A stretch of DNA of 50,796 nucleotides from Deltaproteobacteria bacterium. GTDB lineage: Bacteria > Desulfobacterota > Syntrophia > Syntrophales > UBA8958. Position 1 is the first letter of the stretch. The number at the start of each line of letters is the position of its first letter. The position numbers were made by a program, and so were the translations under genes. Below the pieces are notes generated by a model. That model saw only the letters and a list, made by a program, of their open reading frames with translations, did no database searches and was not told the origin of the DNA. The stretch is from positions 1 through 50,796 of the forward strand of contig JAPLJZ010000159.1 of assembly GCA_026388335.1 (NCBI GenBank), read 5' to 3'. This document shows positions 3,590 through 10,512 of the stretch, in pieces.

Positions 3590-3688
3590 TCATGCTGCAA
3601 GTTGTTTTTCATAGAAAACAAGCTCATAGGCAGCGGGAGAGAGGAGTCCGAGTCTGACCTGACGTCTTTGCCGGTTCGTGAAATTATA
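3590..3688 (-). pseudogene. IS3-family transposase (orfB) C-terminal remnant
   Basis: The minus strand carries a short frame ending NRQRRQVRLGLLSPAAYE, then LVFYEKQLAA and a TGA stop. The N-R-Q-R-R ... L-G-x-L-S-P-x-x-Y-E pattern is the extreme C-terminus of IS3-family integrase-core transposases (usually YNxxRRHxxLGYxSPxxYE). The frame begins exactly where the terminator palindrome at 3686-3717 ends; nothing upstream continues it, so about 90 percent of the gene is lost. It marks an old insertion and deletion between the phospholipase gene and the BKACE operon. Confidence 0.8.
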
Positions 3689-3717
3689 AAGGCAGCGTCT
3701 GCAGACGCTGCCTTTAT
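3686..3717 (-). terminator. Perfect 32-base palindrome, likely terminator of the BKACE operon
   Basis: ATAAAGGCAGCGTCTG followed by its exact reverse complement. Folded, this gives a stem of at least 12 bp around TGCA; read on the minus strand it is followed by TTTATAATTT, as in an intrinsic terminator. It lies about 50 bases downstream of the KPR-BKACE stop codon. Being a perfect palindrome, it could act in both directions. Confidence 0.65.
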
Positions 3718-3769: not shown

Positions 3770-5770
3770 CTATTTTTTTAGCCCCAGGATTTCCCGTGCT
3801 TCGTCGGGCGTGGCCGGTTCAAAATCAAATTCTCCCATGATCCGCACCATCTTTTCCACCAGATCGCCGTTGCTCTTGGCCAGGACTCCCCGCTTCACAT
3901 AGAGGTTGTCTTCCATGCCCACGCGGACGTGGCTGCCCAGGAAGAGGCCCTGGGTGCAGACGGGGAACTCGCCCCGGCCGGCGCCGATAACGGACCACTC
4001 GTAGTTGCCCTTTCCGAAGATGCGTTCCGCCGTCGAGCTCAGGTTGACGAGATCGTAGGGGCTGGACTGTATCCCGCCGAGGATGCCCGTGACGAACTGA
4101 AGGTAAACCGGTAGTTTCACATAACCAGCCTGGACGAGATAGCCGCAGTTGTACAGATGGCCGACGTCGTAAACCTCCAACTCCGGCTTTGTGCCATTTT
4201 CTGCCATGATCGAGGTCATCTTGAACAGATCGGCAAAGGTGTTCTGAAAGACGAAGCCCTTGGCCATCTCCATCATGGCCCCTTCCCAGGGGTACTTGAA
4301 TTCCTTGTATTTCTCGGCGATGGCAAAGACACCCCAGTTCATGGACCCGAGGTTGCAGGAGGCCAGTTCGGGCTTGTAACGGGGAATGACGGAGGCCCGC
4401 TGTTCCACCGTCATACCGGCACCGCCGCCCGTAGTGATGCAGATGATCACGTCCTTGTTCTTTGCCCGGATCTTCTCGAAGATCTGATCGAAGATGTTCA
4501 GGTCTGCCGTGGGCATGCCGGTCTGGGGATCGCGGGCGTGGATATGAACCACCGCCGCGCCGGCGTTAGCGGCGTCGAGGGCGTTCTGGGCGATCTGATC
4601 GGGGGTGATGGGGAGGTACTCCGACATCGTGGGGATGTGGATCGAACCGGTAATGGCGCAGGTCACGATCCGTTTATGAGGCGGAATCTTGCTCTTCGCC
4701 GCATGTAGGGCCGGGGCGCTGGAAACAGCCGGTCTGGGGGTTTCCGCCGGTCCCTCGGGGACTTCGGGCAGGACGAAGAGATCCAGGTTGGACATCTCCG
4801 TTTTCAGCTTGCCTTTCTGGCAGGCCGTGACGATTTCCACTACCTTGTCGTTCATGGGAGTGGCCACGCCTGCTTTTATCCCCATTTCCGCGACCTTCCC
4901 GTTGATCGTGTTGATCTCGCAGGGAATACCTTTTTCCAGGTCCTGCAGCATGCTCGCCTTGAGGGCACGGTGGGGGCCGAAAGCCATCTGGTAGATCATG
5001 AAGGTCTTCTTCATCTGTTGTTGGTTGGCAAACCCCAGAATCCCGACATCTATCCCCTGGATGGGGTCCGGTTTGACGCCCAGGGCGGCAACCACATGGA
5101 GACATTCATTGGCGATGTGAGCGACGCAGGTGAGGGCCTTGGGATTGTCCAGGACATCCCCGTAGGTACATCCCAGTGCCGCCGACATCCCGCTGAAGGT
5201 GGAGTTGACCAGGAGCTTGGTCCAGCGGATGCCCGTCAGTTTATCGGTCAGAATGGGCACTCCGGCCGGCTCCAAAACCTCCTTAACCTTCGTGAGGCGG
5301 TCCGTCATCTTGCCGTCCAGTTCGCCGATGTCATAGGTCATCTTGTCCGCCGGGGATGTCAACTGGGATACCCCCGGGCCGATCCAGGTGGCCCCCCAGC
5401 CGACGGCAGCGCCGATGGTTCGGCTGGCTCCGACATATTCGGCCACTGCGTCTTCAGGGAGGCCGTTCTGTAGCGTCAGGACGATGCTCTCCTCATGCAG
5501 GTGGGGAACGATCTGGGGTAAGGCGACATGGTTGTAGGTCGTCTTGACCAGGTAAATGATGAGGTCATAGGTTCCTTCCATCTGCGCAGGCATGATTGCC
5601 TTGACCGGGACGGTCATTTCCAGAAATCCCACGATCTGAGCCCCTTTTTCATTCAGGGCTTTGACATGTTCCTCATTGGCGTCGACCAGGGTGACGTCGC
5701 GACCGCCTTTGGTCAGCAGCGCACCGAGGATCGTACCCAGTGATCCCGCTCCAACAATAGCTATCTTCAT
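3770..5770 (-). CDS. Fusion of ketopantoate reductase-family dehydrogenase with BKACE (DUF849) beta-keto acid cleavage enzyme
   Basis: 666 residues in two enzymes. Residues 1 to about 330 are a PanE/ApbA-type NAD(P)-dependent dehydrogenase: GAGSLG nucleotide motif at the N-terminus, RWTKLLVNS with the family lysine, and SMLQDLEKGIPCEIN like the family's SMLQDxxxGRxTEIDxINGxV. A Pro/Ala linker (about 335-365) joins it to a BKACE domain: CAITGSIHIPTMSEYLPITP, VHIHARDPQTGMPTADL with the two zinc histidines, and RVGMEDNLYVKRGVLAKSN with the third ligand Glu and following Asp. BKACE enzymes condense a beta-keto acid with acetyl-CoA to give acetoacetate and a new acyl-CoA. All visible catalytic residues are kept in both halves. 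It is the last gene after a GntP permease and a carnitine-dehydrogenase-like gene, which suggests a hydroxy-acid oxidation and cleavage route. Either half could be read alone as PanE or Kce; substrate is unknown. Confidence 0.9.
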   Translation of the reverse strand: MKIAIVGAGSLGTILGALLTKGGRDVTLVDANEEHVKALNEKGAQIVGFLEMTVPVKAIMPAQMEGTYDLIIYLVKTTYNHVALPQIVPHLHEESIVLTLQNGLPEDAVAEYVGASRTIGAAVGWGATWIGPGVSQLTSPADKMTYDIGELDGKMTDRLTKVKEVLEPAGVPILTDKLTGIRWTKLLVNSTFSGMSAALGCTYGDVLDNPKALTCVAHIANECLHVVAALGVKPDPIQGIDVGILGFANQQQMKKTFMIYQMAFGPHRALKASMLQDLEKGIPCEINTINGKVAEMGIKAGVATPMNDKVVEIVTACQKGKLKTEMSNLDLFVLPEVPEGPAETPRPAVSSAPALHAAKSKIPPHKRIVTCAITGSIHIPTMSEYLPITPDQIAQNALDAANAGAAVVHIHARDPQTGMPTADLNIFDQIFEKIRAKNKDVIICITTGGGAGMTVEQRASVIPRYKPELASCNLGSMNWGVFAIAEKYKEFKYPWEGAMMEMAKGFVFQNTFADLFKMTSIMAENGTKPELEVYDVGHLYNCGYLVQAGYVKLPVYLQFVTGILGGIQSSPYDLVNLSSTAERIFGKGNYEWSVIGAGRGEFPVCTQGLFLGSHVRVGMEDNLYVKRGVLAKSNGDLVEKMVRIMGEFDFEPATPDEAREILGLKK

Positions 5771-5842
5771 TTTTCTGTACCTCCGTATGTGGATTATTTG
5801 TTTTTAAAGCCTTCTGCAGACTTCGTTGTTTGTCGATTCGCC

Positions 5843-6811
5843 TCAAACCTTATTGAGAAACTTGAGCAGCGCCAGGAGCCCGTCGTCGCGCCAGCGGGCG
5901 ATTTCCTCGGGCGTTTTTCCCTGCTCCTCGGGTCGGTTGGCCATCTCCTTCAGCACCCCTTCCTGAGCCATGTCGGGCCAGGCCGGCGGCACCTTTTTCC
6001 AGTCGGCCATATCCGCCCACCACAGCTCCACGGAGGGACCAATGTGTTGCATGATGCCCTTGATCCCGAAGGGCCCGCCCCCCAACTGATAGATCAGATT
6101 CGGTCCCATCAGGGCGTAGCGCAGCCCCGGTCCGAAACAGACGGCCTTGTCGATATCCTCGACGGAGCAAACACCCTTGAGGACCAGATCGATGGCCTCC
6201 CGGTAGAGGGCCACGCTAAGCCGGTTGGCAATGAACCCCAGGGCTTCCTTCTGTAGGATGATCGGTTCCTTCCCGTGGGACCGATAGAAGTCATAGGCCA
6301 GTGTCACGGCCGCTGCGGACGTTTTTTCTCCCTTGCTGATTTCGATCAGGGGAATGAGATGGGGGGGGTTGTAGGGATGAGCCCCCAGGCAGCGCTCGGG
6401 GTGGGCGGAGTCTTTGGCGATTTCCGTAATGAGGAGTCCCGAGGTGCTGCTGGCAAAAACCGCCTCCGCCGGCGCATATCGATCAACCTCGGCAAGGAGC
6501 GCCTGCTTCACGTCGTATTTTTCCGGGGCGGCCTCCTGGATAAACGGGACGTCCTTGACGGCAGTTTCCATGCTGGTGGTGTATCGCGCCAGACCAAGGG
6601 CCACATTCATCTTTTCCTGGGTCAGGAGCCCTTTGTTTACCAGGTATTGCAGGTTTCCCCGGACCCGGTCCCGGGCGGTTTTGAGACATTCCTCGCTGAC
6701 GTCGTATACATGGACGGGCAGGCCCCTCCACAGGAAGTTTGTCGTCCAGCTCGAACCGATCATGCCGCTGCCCCCCAGGACGGCGACCTTTTTAATCTCT
6801 GATGCTTTCAC
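5843..6811 (-). CDS. 3-hydroxyacyl-CoA dehydrogenase family enzyme, L-carnitine dehydrogenase-like
   Basis: 322 residues, the usual length of L-carnitine dehydrogenase/lambda-crystallin enzymes and about the size of single-function HBD. The N-terminus has the NAD motif VAVLGGSGMIGSSW and an Asp (YDVS) ending the second strand; the middle has ASSTSGLLITEIA and the catalytic-type AHPYNPPHLIPLIEI, where His and Glu form the dyad; FIANRLSVALYREA follows. The HPYNPPHLIPLVE wording is closer to the carnitine dehydrogenase branch than to HBD. It would oxidise a beta-hydroxy acid to the beta-keto acid that a BKACE could then cleave. Gap to the next gene is 72 bases. Confidence 0.8.
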   Translation of the reverse strand: MKASEIKKVAVLGGSGMIGSSWTTNFLWRGLPVHVYDVSEECLKTARDRVRGNLQYLVNKGLLTQEKMNVALGLARYTTSMETAVKDVPFIQEAAPEKYDVKQALLAEVDRYAPAEAVFASSTSGLLITEIAKDSAHPERCLGAHPYNPPHLIPLIEISKGEKTSAAAVTLAYDFYRSHGKEPIILQKEALGFIANRLSVALYREAIDLVLKGVCSVEDIDKAVCFGPGLRYALMGPNLIYQLGGGPFGIKGIMQHIGPSVELWWADMADWKKVPPAWPDMAQEGVLKEMANRPEEQGKTPEEIARWRDDGLLALLKFLNKV

Positions 6812-6871
6812 TTTCTTTTCTCCTATAATAATCTTTTGATATCATATCAATTCCGGAACGTCGGGATCGCC

Positions 6872-8179
6872 CTAATAGATGAGGATGCCTAGGGGGATCA
6901 CGATACACAGGGCCAACAGGGCCGACACAATATGGGCAAAGAAAACGTGCTTGTAAGCGTTCATGTGCGTCAGGCCGGCCACGGCAAGGAAGGTAATCAC
7001 CACGCCGTTATGAGGCATGGCATCGAAACATCCGGAAGAAATGGTGGCGATCCGGTGGATCAGTTCGGGATTAAGCCCCATGGCCAAGTACTGTTTCGAT
7101 AACGTCTCCAGAACGATTCCCAAACCACCGGAAGCCGAACCGGTAATGGCGGCCATGACGTTTGTGGCGATAGACAGAGAAACAATGGGATTCATCGGCA
7201 GCGTTAACAGCCAGGCGGAAACTACTTTGAAACCGGCGGTTGCTGCAACGGCCATACCGTAGCCCACATCGGCACAGGTGTTGACAATCGGGATAACGGT
7301 ATTAACGGCGCCCTTATTGAGGGAGTCCAGGATGTTGCTAAAATTCTTCCAGAAAAACAGCAGACAGACGGCCGTCCCGCCAGACAGCGCCAAGACGGCA
7401 TCGAGCTTGAAAAAGTTTAACATGACGATGACCACCACCATGGGAATGAGGCTGAGCCACACATTGGGGAGTTTTTCCATCTTTGCCGATGTCGCATCCC
7501 CGCCGATGATGCCAACCCCCGTCGGTGCGACATATCCCTCGCCACGTTCCTTGCATTTCTTTATCGCGTACTTCGTATAAAAATAGGTGAAGATAAGGAC
7601 GACAATCGAGCCCACGATGCCGAGGACAGGGGCGGCCATCGGTGTAGAAGCCATGTATTTCGTTGGCATGATGTTCAGGATCTGGGGAGAACCCGGCATC
7701 ATCGTCATGGTGATAGACCCAATGCCCAAAGCGAAGGAAATCGCAAACAGGTGCCAGGGGATATCCAGTTCCTTCCACATGGGACGGGCAATGGGAATTA
7801 GCGCGAAAACAACCACGAACAGACTCACGCCCCCGTAGGTCAGAACGATGCCGATCAAACCGGCGGCCATGATGACACTCATGGGGCTATTGCGACCGGT
7901 AAGCTTCAGAATGCCTTCGCCCATGGCCCGGGCGGCGCCACTGTCCTCCATAAACTTGCCGAAGATTGAACCTGCCAGGAAGAGCAGATAAAACTTCCCC
8001 GCAAAACTGACGAACCCCTTCATATAGGGTCCCGTCAGCATGGGAAGAGGGGCCATGCTGGAAAACAGCGCGACCACAACAGCAGCCAGAGGTGCGATCA
8101 CAATGATGTGCCATCCCCGGAGGGCCATCACGATGATCATCGCCAAAGAAATAATAATTCCTACAATACTCCAATCCAT
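6872..8179 (-). CDS. GntP-family organic acid permease
   Basis: 435 residues, a polytopic membrane protein with about 11-13 hydrophobic segments. GSIFGKFMEDSGAARAMGEGILKLTG, LTYGGVSLFVVVFALIPIARPM and SSGCFDAMPHNGVVITFLAVAGLTH are hallmarks of the GntP gluconate/hydroxy-acid:H+ symporter family. The start is fixed by AAGGAGGATATGAAATG. Family members carry gluconate, fructuronate or beta-hydroxybutyrate, so a hydroxy acid is the likely cargo; the downstream dehydrogenase and BKACE suggest a beta-hydroxy acid. An 8-bp palindrome lies 29-52 bases upstream of the start. It directly follows the sensor-regulator pair on the same strand. Confidence 0.85.
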   Translation of the reverse strand: MDWSIVGIIISLAMIIVMALRGWHIIVIAPLAAVVVALFSSMAPLPMLTGPYMKGFVSFAGKFYLLFLAGSIFGKFMEDSGAARAMGEGILKLTGRNSPMSVIMAAGLIGIVLTYGGVSLFVVVFALIPIARPMWKELDIPWHLFAISFALGIGSITMTMMPGSPQILNIMPTKYMASTPMAAPVLGIVGSIVVLIFTYFYTKYAIKKCKERGEGYVAPTGVGIIGGDATSAKMEKLPNVWLSLIPMVVVIVMLNFFKLDAVLALSGGTAVCLLFFWKNFSNILDSLNKGAVNTVIPIVNTCADVGYGMAVAATAGFKVVSAWLLTLPMNPIVSLSIATNVMAAITGSASGGLGIVLETLSKQYLAMGLNPELIHRIATISSGCFDAMPHNGVVITFLAVAGLTHMNAYKHVFFAHIVSALLALCIVIPLGILIY

Positions 8180-8207
8180 TTCATATCCTCCTTCAATCTG
8201 TTGGATT

Positions 8208-8231
8208 TAGGCAGAATCTTTTCTCTGCCTA
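8208..8231 (-). promoter_or_regulatory. Candidate operator upstream of the GntP permease gene
   Basis: TAGGCAGA, eight bases, TCTGCCTA is a perfect 8-bp inverted repeat, 29-52 bases before the permease start. A dimeric LuxR/NarL-type regulator is encoded immediately upstream on the same strand, so this could be its binding site. A hairpin role in the leader RNA is the alternative. No convincing -35/-10 pair was identified. Confidence 0.35.
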
Positions 8232-8265
8232 GTGTGAACCTTAGGATATGTCACGAAAAGTAAGC

Positions 8266-8285
8266 AATGGGGGGCGGACCCCATT
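8266..8285 (-). terminator. Weak hairpin after the response regulator gene
   Basis: AATGGGG, six bases, CCCCATT forms a 7-bp stem 42 bases past the regulator stop. On the minus strand it is followed by GCTTACTTTT rather than a clean T-run. It may partly separate the regulator transcript from the permease operon. Confidence 0.25.
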
Positions 8286-8327
8286 CGTTAAGGTGGGAAC
8301 CCTACTTCTTTATTTATGGACAAGCTC

Positions 8328-8996
8328 TTAATCTTCCCAGAGGTCGGGATCGACGATGCCGATCTTAATGGCGTATTTCAGCAGATCCAGACGGTCATGG
8401 ACATCCAGTTTGTTCATCAGGCTGGTGCGGTGTTTTTCTACCGTCTTCGGGCTGACACAGAGGATATTGGCAATCTGGCTGGTGGAGTGTCCCTGGGCCA
8501 CCAGACGAAAAACCTGCTGCTCCCGCTCGCTGAGGAGATCGTAGCTGCGCACGGAGGGAACGCTTCGCTGCACCTGGAGATACTTTCCGATCACTTCCGC
8601 CTGTAGCCGGGAGCTGAGGAAATATTCGCCCCGGTAGGCAGCCCGGATCGCATCGAGGATATCCAGGCTGGGAGAGGCTTTGAGGACATAACCCAGCGCC
8701 CCCGCCGCCAGCGCCTGCTGCACATAGGTTTCCTTGGCGTGCATGGACAGGACCACGACCTGTGAGGTGGGCACAGCCTCCCTGATGAGACCGATAACTT
8801 CGATGCCGCTCAGCCGGGGCATGGCGATGTCCAGAAGGATGACGTCCGGACGTAGCGTTTTAGCCCGCTCCAGGGCCTGTTGGCCGTCCTCGGCTTCGCC
8901 TGCCGGTTCCATGTCAGGCTGGCTCTTGAGAAGCTGTTGTAAGCCATCCCGGACAATGGCATGGTCGTCGGCGATGAGGACTCTGATCTTTTTCAT
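8328..8996 (-). CDS. NarL/FixJ-type response regulator
   Basis: 222 residues. The receiver domain (1-120) has the acidic pocket LIADDHAI, phospho-acceptor Asp56 in DVILLDIAMP, a Ser in VVVLSMHA and the Lys of YVLKAS. The C-terminal LuxR-type HTH (about 150-210) reads LLSEREQQVFRLVAQGHSTSQI and SPKTVEKHRTSLMNKL. Its start lies nine bases after the kinase stop, so the pair is co-transcribed and surely cognate. Given the direct downstream position of the GntP-dehydrogenase-BKACE genes, it probably controls them in response to their substrate; this is inference from position. Confidence 0.9.
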   Translation of the reverse strand: MKKIRVLIADDHAIVRDGLQQLLKSQPDMEPAGEAEDGQQALERAKTLRPDVILLDIAMPRLSGIEVIGLIREAVPTSQVVVLSMHAKETYVQQALAAGALGYVLKASPSLDILDAIRAAYRGEYFLSSRLQAEVIGKYLQVQRSVPSVRSYDLLSEREQQVFRLVAQGHSTSQIANILCVSPKTVEKHRTSLMNKLDVHDRLDLLKYAIKIGIVDPDLWED

Positions 8997-9005
8997 GTGA
9001 CCCTC

Positions 9006-10457
9006 TTACAGGACCGGGATGCTGGCCCTGATCGTGGTTCCCTTCCCGGGAATGGAGGCGATATCAATCGTGCCCCCGCAGGAAGCAACCCGCTCTCTCA
9101 TGCTCGGGAGGCCGATACCGCGGACCGGGCCGACGGGCGATGATGGGTGAGGCGAAGTTTCATATCCGACGCCGTTATCCCTGATCGTGAAGATAACCCG
9201 GGGATGGCTGTAGGTCAGCATTATCTCGACCTGGGTCGCCTTGGCGTGCTTGGAGATGTTGGTCAGGCACTCCTGAAAGATCCGGTAGAGAACGATTTCT
9301 ATCTGCTGGCTCAGTCGCTTCTTCAGGCCAAGGGACTGAAATTCCAGCCGGATGTCCGGCCAGCGCACATTGAACTCATGGATAAACCACTCCAGGGTGG
9401 GAACCAGTCCCAGATGATCCAGGAGGTCAGGACGGAGGTAGGAGGTGGTTTTCCTGACGCTGTCCGCAAGCATTTCAACTCTCTGGAGAAGACCGCTGCA
9501 ACGCTGCTTCTGTTCTGTAAATCCGTCTGTAATGGACGATTGCAGGGCTTCCAGGTCGAAATGCAGGGAGGTCAGGGCTTGGCCGAACTCGTCGTGAAGA
9601 TCAGCGGCAAGCCCTTTTTTCTCTTCTTCACTTACCTCGATGAGACGCCGGGAGAGATGATGGATCTCCTCTTCGGATGCCTTGCTCTGGGTGATGTCGA
9701 TACAGTTTCCCACCACCGCCGACTGGCCGAGGTAGGTGGCATGTGTGGCCCGCAAATCCACCCAGATCGTGGATCCGTCTTTTTTTATGGCCCGCAGGGT
9801 ATATTGTAGCGGGAAGACCTGACTCTTCTCCCGGTTGAGGCCCCTTTCCTTCACGAGGGACCGGTCGTCGGGGTGAACGAATTCCCAGAAGTGCCTGCCG
9901 ATGACCTCCTCAGTTGTGTCATACCCAAGCATTTCGGCAAAACGGTGGTTGACGAAGCGGAAAACGCCCTGCTGATGGATGAAGATGGCCGAAAGGGAGT
10001 TTTCAACCACGATGCGGTATTTTTCCTCGGACTCCTGGAGTGCCTGCTCCGCTCTTTTCCTGTCCGTAACGTCGAGGACAAACCCCTCGTATCCTTCGAC
10101 GCGCCCCTTCCCGTTCCGTCGCGTCGTGGCGGTAATCCTCACATCGAGGATGGTTCCGTCGCAGCGGCGGAACCGGGTTTCAAAATCCTGGACGGACCCC
10201 GTCTGTTCGATGGTCTTCAGAAACCGCAGGCGGTCCCCTGGCTCGGCATAGAGGTGGTGTGCAGCCTCGAGACCCAGGACCTCTTCGGGAGAGCCGTAGC
10301 CCAGCATGGTGACGCCGGCTTCATTCATGTCCAGGATGAAGCCGGCGGTGTCGCTCAGATAGACCATGGCGGGGGAATGTTCAAAAATGTGTCGGAAGCG
10401 CTGTGCGGAGCCCGTCAAGGGCCTTTTTTTCGTCTTTGGACCCCTCTGTGTATTCAT
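9006..10457 (-). CDS. Cytoplasmic PAS-PAS sensor histidine kinase (NarX/HPK7-type)
   Basis: 483 residues without membrane segments. Two PAS domains (about 20-135 and 145-262; GYEGFVLDVTDRKRAEQAL ends the first) precede a HisKA_3 dimerisation helix with the phospho-acceptor His288 in AADLHDEFGQALTSL. The ATPase domain has the N-box FQECLTNISKHAKA, DNGVGY and GIGLPSMRERVASCGG. This domain order signals to NarL-type regulators, and one is encoded next. With no periplasmic sensor, it must read an intracellular signal such as a metabolite or redox state. The start is preceded by AAGGGGACGGC. Confidence 0.9.
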   Translation of the reverse strand: MNTQRGPKTKKRPLTGSAQRFRHIFEHSPAMVYLSDTAGFILDMNEAGVTMLGYGSPEEVLGLEAAHHLYAEPGDRLRFLKTIEQTGSVQDFETRFRRCDGTILDVRITATTRRNGKGRVEGYEGFVLDVTDRKRAEQALQESEEKYRIVVENSLSAIFIHQQGVFRFVNHRFAEMLGYDTTEEVIGRHFWEFVHPDDRSLVKERGLNREKSQVFPLQYTLRAIKKDGSTIWVDLRATHATYLGQSAVVGNCIDITQSKASEEEIHHLSRRLIEVSEEEKKGLAADLHDEFGQALTSLHFDLEALQSSITDGFTEQKQRCSGLLQRVEMLADSVRKTTSYLRPDLLDHLGLVPTLEWFIHEFNVRWPDIRLEFQSLGLKKRLSQQIEIVLYRIFQECLTNISKHAKATQVEIMLTYSHPRVIFTIRDNGVGYETSPHPSSPVGPVRGIGLPSMRERVASCGGTIDIASIPGKGTTIRASIPVL

Positions 10458-10512
10458 GCCGTCCCCTTACACGAAATCCACAGGGTTATCCACAGGAATG
10501 TTGACGGGTTTG

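Follow-up and report, generated by a model that had tools for sequence, protein, structure and literature searches.

An ApbA/PanE-like dehydrogenase fused to BKACE in Syntrophales, a candidate two-step enzyme of hydroxy acid degradation

One gene of a Deltaproteobacteria bacterium (Syntrophales) is a genuine fusion of two complete enzymes, an ApbA/PanE-like dehydrogenase followed by BKACE, with the catalytic residues of both present. It lies on a contig of 50,796 nucleotides (JAPLJZ010000159.1), all of which was analysed and is here called the window. The protein is fairly probably a bifunctional catabolic enzyme in which an NAD+-dependent dehydrogenase makes a beta-keto acid and the tethered BKACE cleaves it to acetoacetate and an acyl-CoA. 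The N-terminal ApbA-fold half would oxidize the hydroxyl of a free organic acid, probably a 3-hydroxy acid, with NAD+, and the flexibly tethered zinc BKACE half would condense the resulting beta-keto acid with acetyl-CoA to give acetoacetate and a shortened acyl-CoA. In the window, a neighbouring permease controlled by a two-component pair would import the acid, and a separate enzyme of the 3-hydroxyacyl-CoA-dehydrogenase family (3HCDH) would carry out a second oxidation, either of the other enantiomer or of another hydroxyl. Oxidation of a hydroxy acid ending in a beta-keto acid for BKACE is suggested because of the NAD-type motif of the first half, the catabolic operon, the exchange of ApbA for 3HCDH-family proteins in related operons, and the BKACE partner itself. 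We infer the order of the steps, the substrate class, the handing-over of the intermediate and any benefit of tethering. Genomes and loci of the comparison are given below by G and L numbers where they need to be told apart.

Table 1. Coordinates of the fusion gene, its parts and the neighbouring operon genes in the window
Feature	Position	Strand	Basis
Fusion gene, ApbA/PanE-like dehydrogenase + BKACE, 666 aa	3770..5770	(-)	ORF, Pfam, same frame in 5 further genomes
ApbA/PanE-like dehydrogenase half, residues 1-340	4751..5770	(-)	Pfam, motifs; end set by unfused relatives
Pro/Ala-rich linker, residues about 341-364, predicted disordered	4679..4750	(-)	Unfused relatives, AlphaFold pLDDT
BKACE half, residues 365-666 and stop	3770..4678	(-)	Pfam, residue alignment
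3HCDH-family dehydrogenase, carnitine-dehydrogenase / lambda-crystallin type, 322 aa	5843..6811	(-)	Pfam, NCBIfam, PDB match
Organic-acid permease, CitMHS/GntP-like, 435 aa	6872..8179	(-)	Pfam
NarL-type response regulator, Response_reg + GerE	8328..8996	(-)	Pfam
PAS histidine kinase, HisKA_3	9006..10457	(-)	Pfam

The open reading frame starts with an ATG preceded by GGAGG and has no internal stops in its 666 codons. Three Pfam models match the product: ApbA (PF02558) at residues 3-141 with 98.6 bits (cut-off 22.2), ApbA_C (PF08546) at residues 179-316 with 91.1 bits (cut-off 22.7), and BKACE (PF05853) at residues 367-664 with 342.3 bits (cut-off 24.8), the last covering positions 2-274 of the 274 in the model. 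A sequence-only reading had proposed a complete ApbA/PanE protein, a linker and a complete BKACE in a single frame; these scores, far above the cut-offs, together with the zinc histidine pair and the RVGMED motif, bear this out. The Pro/Ala linker that it described is present and predicted to be disordered, but shorter than it looks. Unfused ApbA relatives are 338-340 residues long, and the point where they stop (for example LPDVPEV followed by a stop) matches fusion residues 334-340, so that the true linker comprises only about 24 residues. An AlphaFold2 model was built from an alignment of 31 sequences (alignment A1) in which some row ends of single-domain proteins are misplaced. It has two ordered domains and a mean pLDDT of 86.2, with values below 50 at linker residues 343-359 and in a short loop of the BKACE half (505-509); since the pTM is low (0.54), the mutual orientation of the two domains is not to be read from it. 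The best PDB fold matches of the model are DUF849/BKACE structures (3lot, TM 0.91 by target length) and ketopantoate reductase / D-mandelate dehydrogenase.

The ApbA half has a GAGSLG nucleotide motif (GxGxxG) from residue 7 and keeps Asn102, Lys185, Asn189, Ser273 and Glu285; Asn102, Lys185 and Glu285 presumably act as they do in E. coli PanE. The region after beta-2 has no residue of the NADP type; Asp30 sits at the end of this strand instead. In the alignments an Asp is also found at this position in the D-mandelate dehydrogenase chain 3wfi/3wfj/5x20, which was solved with NADH; in ketopantoate reductase 5hws, a structure with NADP+, the position is occupied by Gly-Arg. The equivalent Asp occurs in all fused and operon ApbA rows of the residue alignment. 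A distant ApbA protein of the same genome (L007) has an Arg in this region. Use of NAD by the ApbA half is predicted from these residues. To our knowledge, characterized ApbA-family enzymes act on 2-oxo or 2-hydroxy acids, and the PDB names of the structural matches of this half agree with such substrates; activity of an ApbA-family enzyme on a 3-hydroxy acid would be new.

In the BKACE half the zinc histidines are His409 and His411, in the motif VHIHARD from residue 408. The RVGMED motif starts at residue 616 and contains Glu620, which we take to complete the zinc ligand set with the two histidines. Glu171, Tyr173 and Arg254 of Paracoccus BKACE15 align with fusion residues Glu532, Tyr534 and Arg616. 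In BKACE15, the role of Glu171 as catalytic base is backed by mutation and Arg254 is the residue proposed earlier (PMC11961710); Tyr173 is reported to occur in all BKACE sequences, with Phe in its place in the divergent BsfD (PMC12871164). Acetyl-CoA-dependent cleavage of a beta-keto acid to acetoacetate is the activity predicted for this half. The fused BKACE scores 391.8 with the 3,5-dioxohexanoate BKACE model NF053538, below its cut-off of 430. Other BKACE proteins gave 402.1 (the fusion in a metagenome-assembled genome, or MAG, named Ch109), 422.4 (G626), 422.7 (G145) and 399.1 (G062), and the unfused operon BKACE of G020 just passes at 432.8, the only one of the six scored to do so.

The fusion was found in six genomes in all, and its copies form one clade, so the expectation that it should recur in related genomes is borne out. 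Within the order, 5 of 155 genomes have stop-free fusions: the window's own (G000), G148, G151, G154 and G004. Four of the eight genomes examined in the genus have it (G000, G148, G151 and G154) and the other four are without it. G004 is a MAG of another family; its contig, 4,239 bases long, ends at residue 654 of the copy and may be misbinned. A pattern scan of genome contigs gave five loci, all of them fusions, including one in the MAG titled Bacillota Ch109 (G534). The five other fusions are 97, 96, 96, 93 and 78% identical to the window protein, the 93% copy being the one that runs off its contig at residue 654 and the 78% copy that of Ch109. At the DNA level identity across the gene is 87-93% in four other assemblies and 75% in the fifth. 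In wider samples the fusion occurred in 1 of 395 genomes of the phylum (the window's own), 1 of 4 of the order of G534 and 1 of 398 of its phylum (G534). The pattern scan detects close relatives only. Each phylum sample covered part of the phylum, and few candidates were scored in each genome, so fusions that are rarer or more divergent may have escaped. The Ch109 locus also has a DDE transposase gene about 450 bp upstream of the fusion (L013 6116-7549), a possible trace of transfer.

Purifying selection acts on both halves. Among the pairs computed, dN/dS (YN00) ranged from 0.035 to 0.101 in the ApbA half (9 of 15 pairs) and from 0.009 to 0.021 in the BKACE half (10 of 15 pairs). Pairs with the Ch109 copy (L013) were left out for both halves, as was the pair of the window with L009 for the ApbA half.

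The fusion is the last of five genes on the same strand, in the order PAS kinase, NarL-type regulator, permease, 3HCDH-type dehydrogenase and fusion. The PDB entry nearest to the 3HCDH neighbour is lambda-crystallin. An operon for L-carnitine degradation was considered and rejected, since this neighbour falls below the cut-offs of the carnitine dehydrogenase models (226 versus 414 for NF005471 and 211.9 versus 592 for NF005716). The presence of a second dehydrogenase in the operon makes a dihydroxy acid, or else two enantiomers of one acid, an attractive candidate substrate.

ApbA and BKACE genes are side by side but unfused in five genomes (G141, G117, G020, G021 and G626). The gene order of the window, with the two genes separate, occurs in G141, G020 and G021; G117 has the same order except that the kinase and regulator do not adjoin. 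The two genes are 75 bp apart in G141, 218 in G117, 50 in G020 and 49 in G021, with permease and 3HCDH genes adjoining, and the 3HCDH proteins beside these pairs are 71-74% identical to the one in the window. Permease identity is 72-75% in G117, G020 and G021 and only 38% in G141 and G626. G626, a genome of the phylum of G534 with the locus on a 3.26-Mb contig, has the order ApbA, BKACE, permease (38%) and 3HCDH (61%), and its ApbA-BKACE gap is 52 bp if BKACE starts at the ATG behind a GGAGG. Homologues of both the regulator and the kinase are found in the operons of G141, G020, G021, G145, G027 and G028. The last three operons have no ApbA gene (an ApbA relative is located elsewhere in G027), and a different 3HCDH-family dehydrogenase, 25-28% identical to the first, lies directly before BKACE. 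Because a protein of this family replaces ApbA before BKACE in three operons, oxidation of a hydroxy acid is indicated. The earlier suggestion of a dehydrogenase step followed by acetyl-CoA-dependent cleavage thus agrees with the operon as far as order goes, the unfused genes being neighbours; the handing-over between the two steps we infer.

Other surroundings have also been observed. The 3HCDH and BKACE genes of G025 come after TRAP transporter genes and a gene of the SDR/epimerase family, and a gene downstream in G021 has the Pfam make-up of an NDP-forming acyl-CoA synthetase, which fits an acyl-CoA product. ApbA relatives away from BKACE are found beside an AlaDH/PNT-family gene (G094) or a mandelate-racemase-family gene (G105), and in other surroundings again in G308. 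A further example is a stretch of G879 (L106 1734-10175) in which an ApbA relative is accompanied by a 3HCDH-family gene and a permease (35%) but no BKACE was seen within 15 kb; it also holds CoA-ligase, acyl-CoA dehydrogenase and family III CoA-transferase genes and is perhaps a related pathway with another ending. Since ApbA relatives occur without BKACE (G094, G105, G879), the link between the ApbA reaction and cleavage is not universal.

Two genomes have the fusion without the rest of the operon. In G154 it is at the same chromosomal place as in the window, but none of the four other operon genes (kinase, regulator, permease, 3HCDH) is present there: the DNA of this genome aligns up to window position 10464 and resumes at 5836, in the gap before the fusion, with the ribosome-binding site kept, so that L010 7902-7934 stands against window 5837-10463. 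No match to the 3HCDH neighbour at E<=1e-40 was obtained in G154 or G534. The best permease match in G154 is 36% identical, and G534 has none at E<=1e-20; with no close permease in either genome, the import step is not general. Retention of the fused protein without its operon supports a self-contained two-step enzyme, and the keto acid may need no dehydrogenase besides the ApbA half.

Among other explanations, a sequencing or assembly artefact that joined two genes scarcely deserves credence. The assembly to which the window belongs is in 268 contigs, but the frame is unbroken in five other assemblies and both halves are under purifying selection; the sequencing error removing a stop that the sequence-only reading had named as its own refutation is very unlikely for the same unbroken frame. 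It is also very improbable that the ApbA half is the ketopantoate reductase that forms pantoate for the cell, tethered to BKACE by chance. This half passes the PanE model TIGR00745 (175.2 versus a cut-off of 141.35 bits), although it remains below the cut-offs of the narrower equivalog models of the PRK06522 type. However, panB is present in the same genome, and two further ApbA proteins there score higher with TIGR00745 (230.7 and 225.9); because of these a role of the fused half in pantoate synthesis is judged unlikely; Asp30 is not of the NADP type, and the make-up of the operon is catabolic. The idea that ketopantoate reductase specificity sets the substrate of the fusion is not supported, given the same evidence and the 3HCDH-family exchange in three operons. 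The branched or alpha-substituted beta-keto acid that the sequence-only reading suggested is one possible substrate.

The dehydrogenase half could also act after cleavage, reducing acetoacetate or handling the released acid, and so remove an inhibitory product and regenerate NAD+ in a fermenting or syntrophic cell. Inhibition of BKACE15 by acetoacetate (IC50 1.45 mM; PMC11961710) is in keeping with this, as is the retention of the fusion in G154 and G534 without a separate 3HCDH enzyme or a close permease. Nevertheless such a role appears improbable: an NAD-type oxidation precedes BKACE in the described deoxyribonate route (PMC6365646), and none of the Pfam-checked neighbours of the fusion in these genomes (six in L013, one in L010) is a dehydrogenase able to make the keto acid. 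A somewhat less remote, though still unlikely, alternative is that the fusion secures only joint expression or assembly of two enzymes whose steps are not consecutive, with no handing-over; in a 3,5-dihydroxy acid, for example, C5 might be oxidized by ApbA and the 3-keto group made by the 3HCDH enzyme. The operon does have two dehydrogenases besides BKACE, the linker is floppy, and the G020 BKACE passes the 3,5-dioxohexanoate model. Yet that protein is the only one of the six to pass, the fused BKACE scoring below the cut-off, and the fusion persists in two genomes that have no 3HCDH gene. Oxidation by the ApbA half followed directly by cleavage is the reading that we prefer. Points against it are the 2-oxo and 2-hydroxy substrates of characterized ApbA-family enzymes, the ApbA relatives found away from BKACE, the tree position of the fused BKACE apart from those of the most similar operons, the lack of a close permease in G154 and G534, and the four genomes of the genus without the fusion.

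Several known systems resemble the fusion in part. BKACE15 of Paracoccus denitrificans (PDB 8RIO/8RIP/9HNF) aligns with the BKACE half over its length at 40-41% identity, with the catalytic Glu, Tyr and Arg kept, but it stands alone without a dehydrogenase half. The closest solved structure to this half is the DUF849 protein 3LOT of Archaeoglobus fulgidus (E 7.2e-107; 53-54% identity), likewise a stand-alone protein and titled in the PDB as a protein of unknown function. D-mandelate dehydrogenase (3WFI/3WFJ/5X20) has the fold of the ApbA half and the Asp at the end of beta-2, was solved with NADH, and is 25-27% identical, but it is not fused; it acts on 2-hydroxy acids. PanE (5HWS, 5AYV) has the same fold and the Lys/Glu/Asn pattern, and its model TIGR00745 is the one that the fused half passes. 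It differs in its role in pantoate making and, in 5HWS, in NADP+ and the Gly-Arg cofactor site. Kal-Kce (NF052389; 3-aminobutyryl-CoA ammonia lyase / 3-keto-5-aminohexanoate cleavage) is likewise a BKACE fused to a pathway partner, in this case an ammonia lyase that acts after cleavage; the fusion scores 167.7 with this model, below the cut-off of 725. In deoxyribonate catabolism of Pseudomonas simiae, a free 3-hydroxy acid is oxidized and then cleaved by BKACE, with transporter genes adjoining, but the genes are separate and the dehydrogenase is of the SDR family (PMC6365646). The sequence-only reading knew of no described fusion of this kind, and no description of an ApbA-BKACE fusion was found in the accessible text of the literature searched on BKACE, DUF849 and ketopantoate reductase.

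The fused halves form one group in both domain trees, the Ch109 copy included (support 99/99 for ApbA, 94/97 in the other tree; 100/99 for BKACE), so that one fusion event with later transfer, or with misbinned contigs, would be the simplest account. Two trees were made for each half; the long rows L007 and L078 (ApbA) and L004, L005, L077 and L090 (BKACE) are in the first pair only, and rows from L102-L106 were added in the second. Roots are midpoints, for drawing only. Simple joining of the operon's own two genes was rejected as the origin, since the fused BKACE clade does not group with the BKACE proteins of the four most similar operons, all from Syntrophales, and is split deeply from them (100/98; 97/95 versus 95/85 in the other tree). 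The BKACE of the unfused G626 pair falls on the fusion's side of this split. Either a G626-like pair fused, or the BKACE of the operon was replaced. The sister of the fused BKACE halves is the stand-alone group L019-L021, at weak support (95/69; 88/79). Around members of this group are thiolase-like, acyl-CoA dehydrogenase, CoA-ligase and ETF genes in G027 (Pfam, 8 proteins) and an adjoining acyl-CoA dehydrogenase in G025 (Pfam, 1 protein); G062 was judged by clustering only. Two further candidates for a fusion were set aside. A 545-residue frame with BKACE in G534 (L079 7748-9385, Pfam from residue 245) has no Pfam match ahead of BKACE; a thiolase-like open frame (8710-9933), read in a different frame, overlaps this segment, and the likely start is an inner Met. 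The long open frame in L002 is a stand-alone BKACE (310-aa ORF).

For many BKACE enzymes neither substrate nor pathway has been assigned. Here the fusion, the unfused operon and the swapped-in alternatives name the dehydrogenase partner of BKACE, point to a pair of consecutive steps in an acid-degradation route not yet described, and make a two-step assay on one protein possible. If the preferred reading is true, it would give a catabolic member to the ApbA family, whose proteins are usually annotated as pantoate enzymes, and would correct the automatic label '2-dehydropantoate 2-reductase' in such operons. A wider proposal is tentative: that the ApbA fold was recruited as an NAD+ oxidoreductase for free 3-hydroxy acids and welded to BKACE, the whole forming acetoacetate and a shortened acyl-CoA from a hydroxy acid with NAD+ and acetyl-CoA, and was passed as a single gene between Syntrophus-like bacteria and a distant lineage.

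Relatives of the operon proteins have also been noted in other settings. At L090 6062-10112 a distant BKACE (34%) adjoins a 71% homologue of the 3HCDH enzyme, and genes of the AbiEi/AbiEii type come next. G626 also carries another BKACE from the same clade (67%), placed immediately after a gene for a short-chain fatty acid transporter and near a sigma-54 activator (L102 11074-13419). In the window the promoter scan gave 3 sites versus 3.4 expected and the terminator scan 12 sites versus 7.8 expected (sd 3.2), and no conclusion is based on either. Just 3' of the fusion gene there is a 28-nt perfect palindrome with a T-rich stretch behind it (3688-3715, minus strand), absent from the terminator-scan list and a possible terminator.
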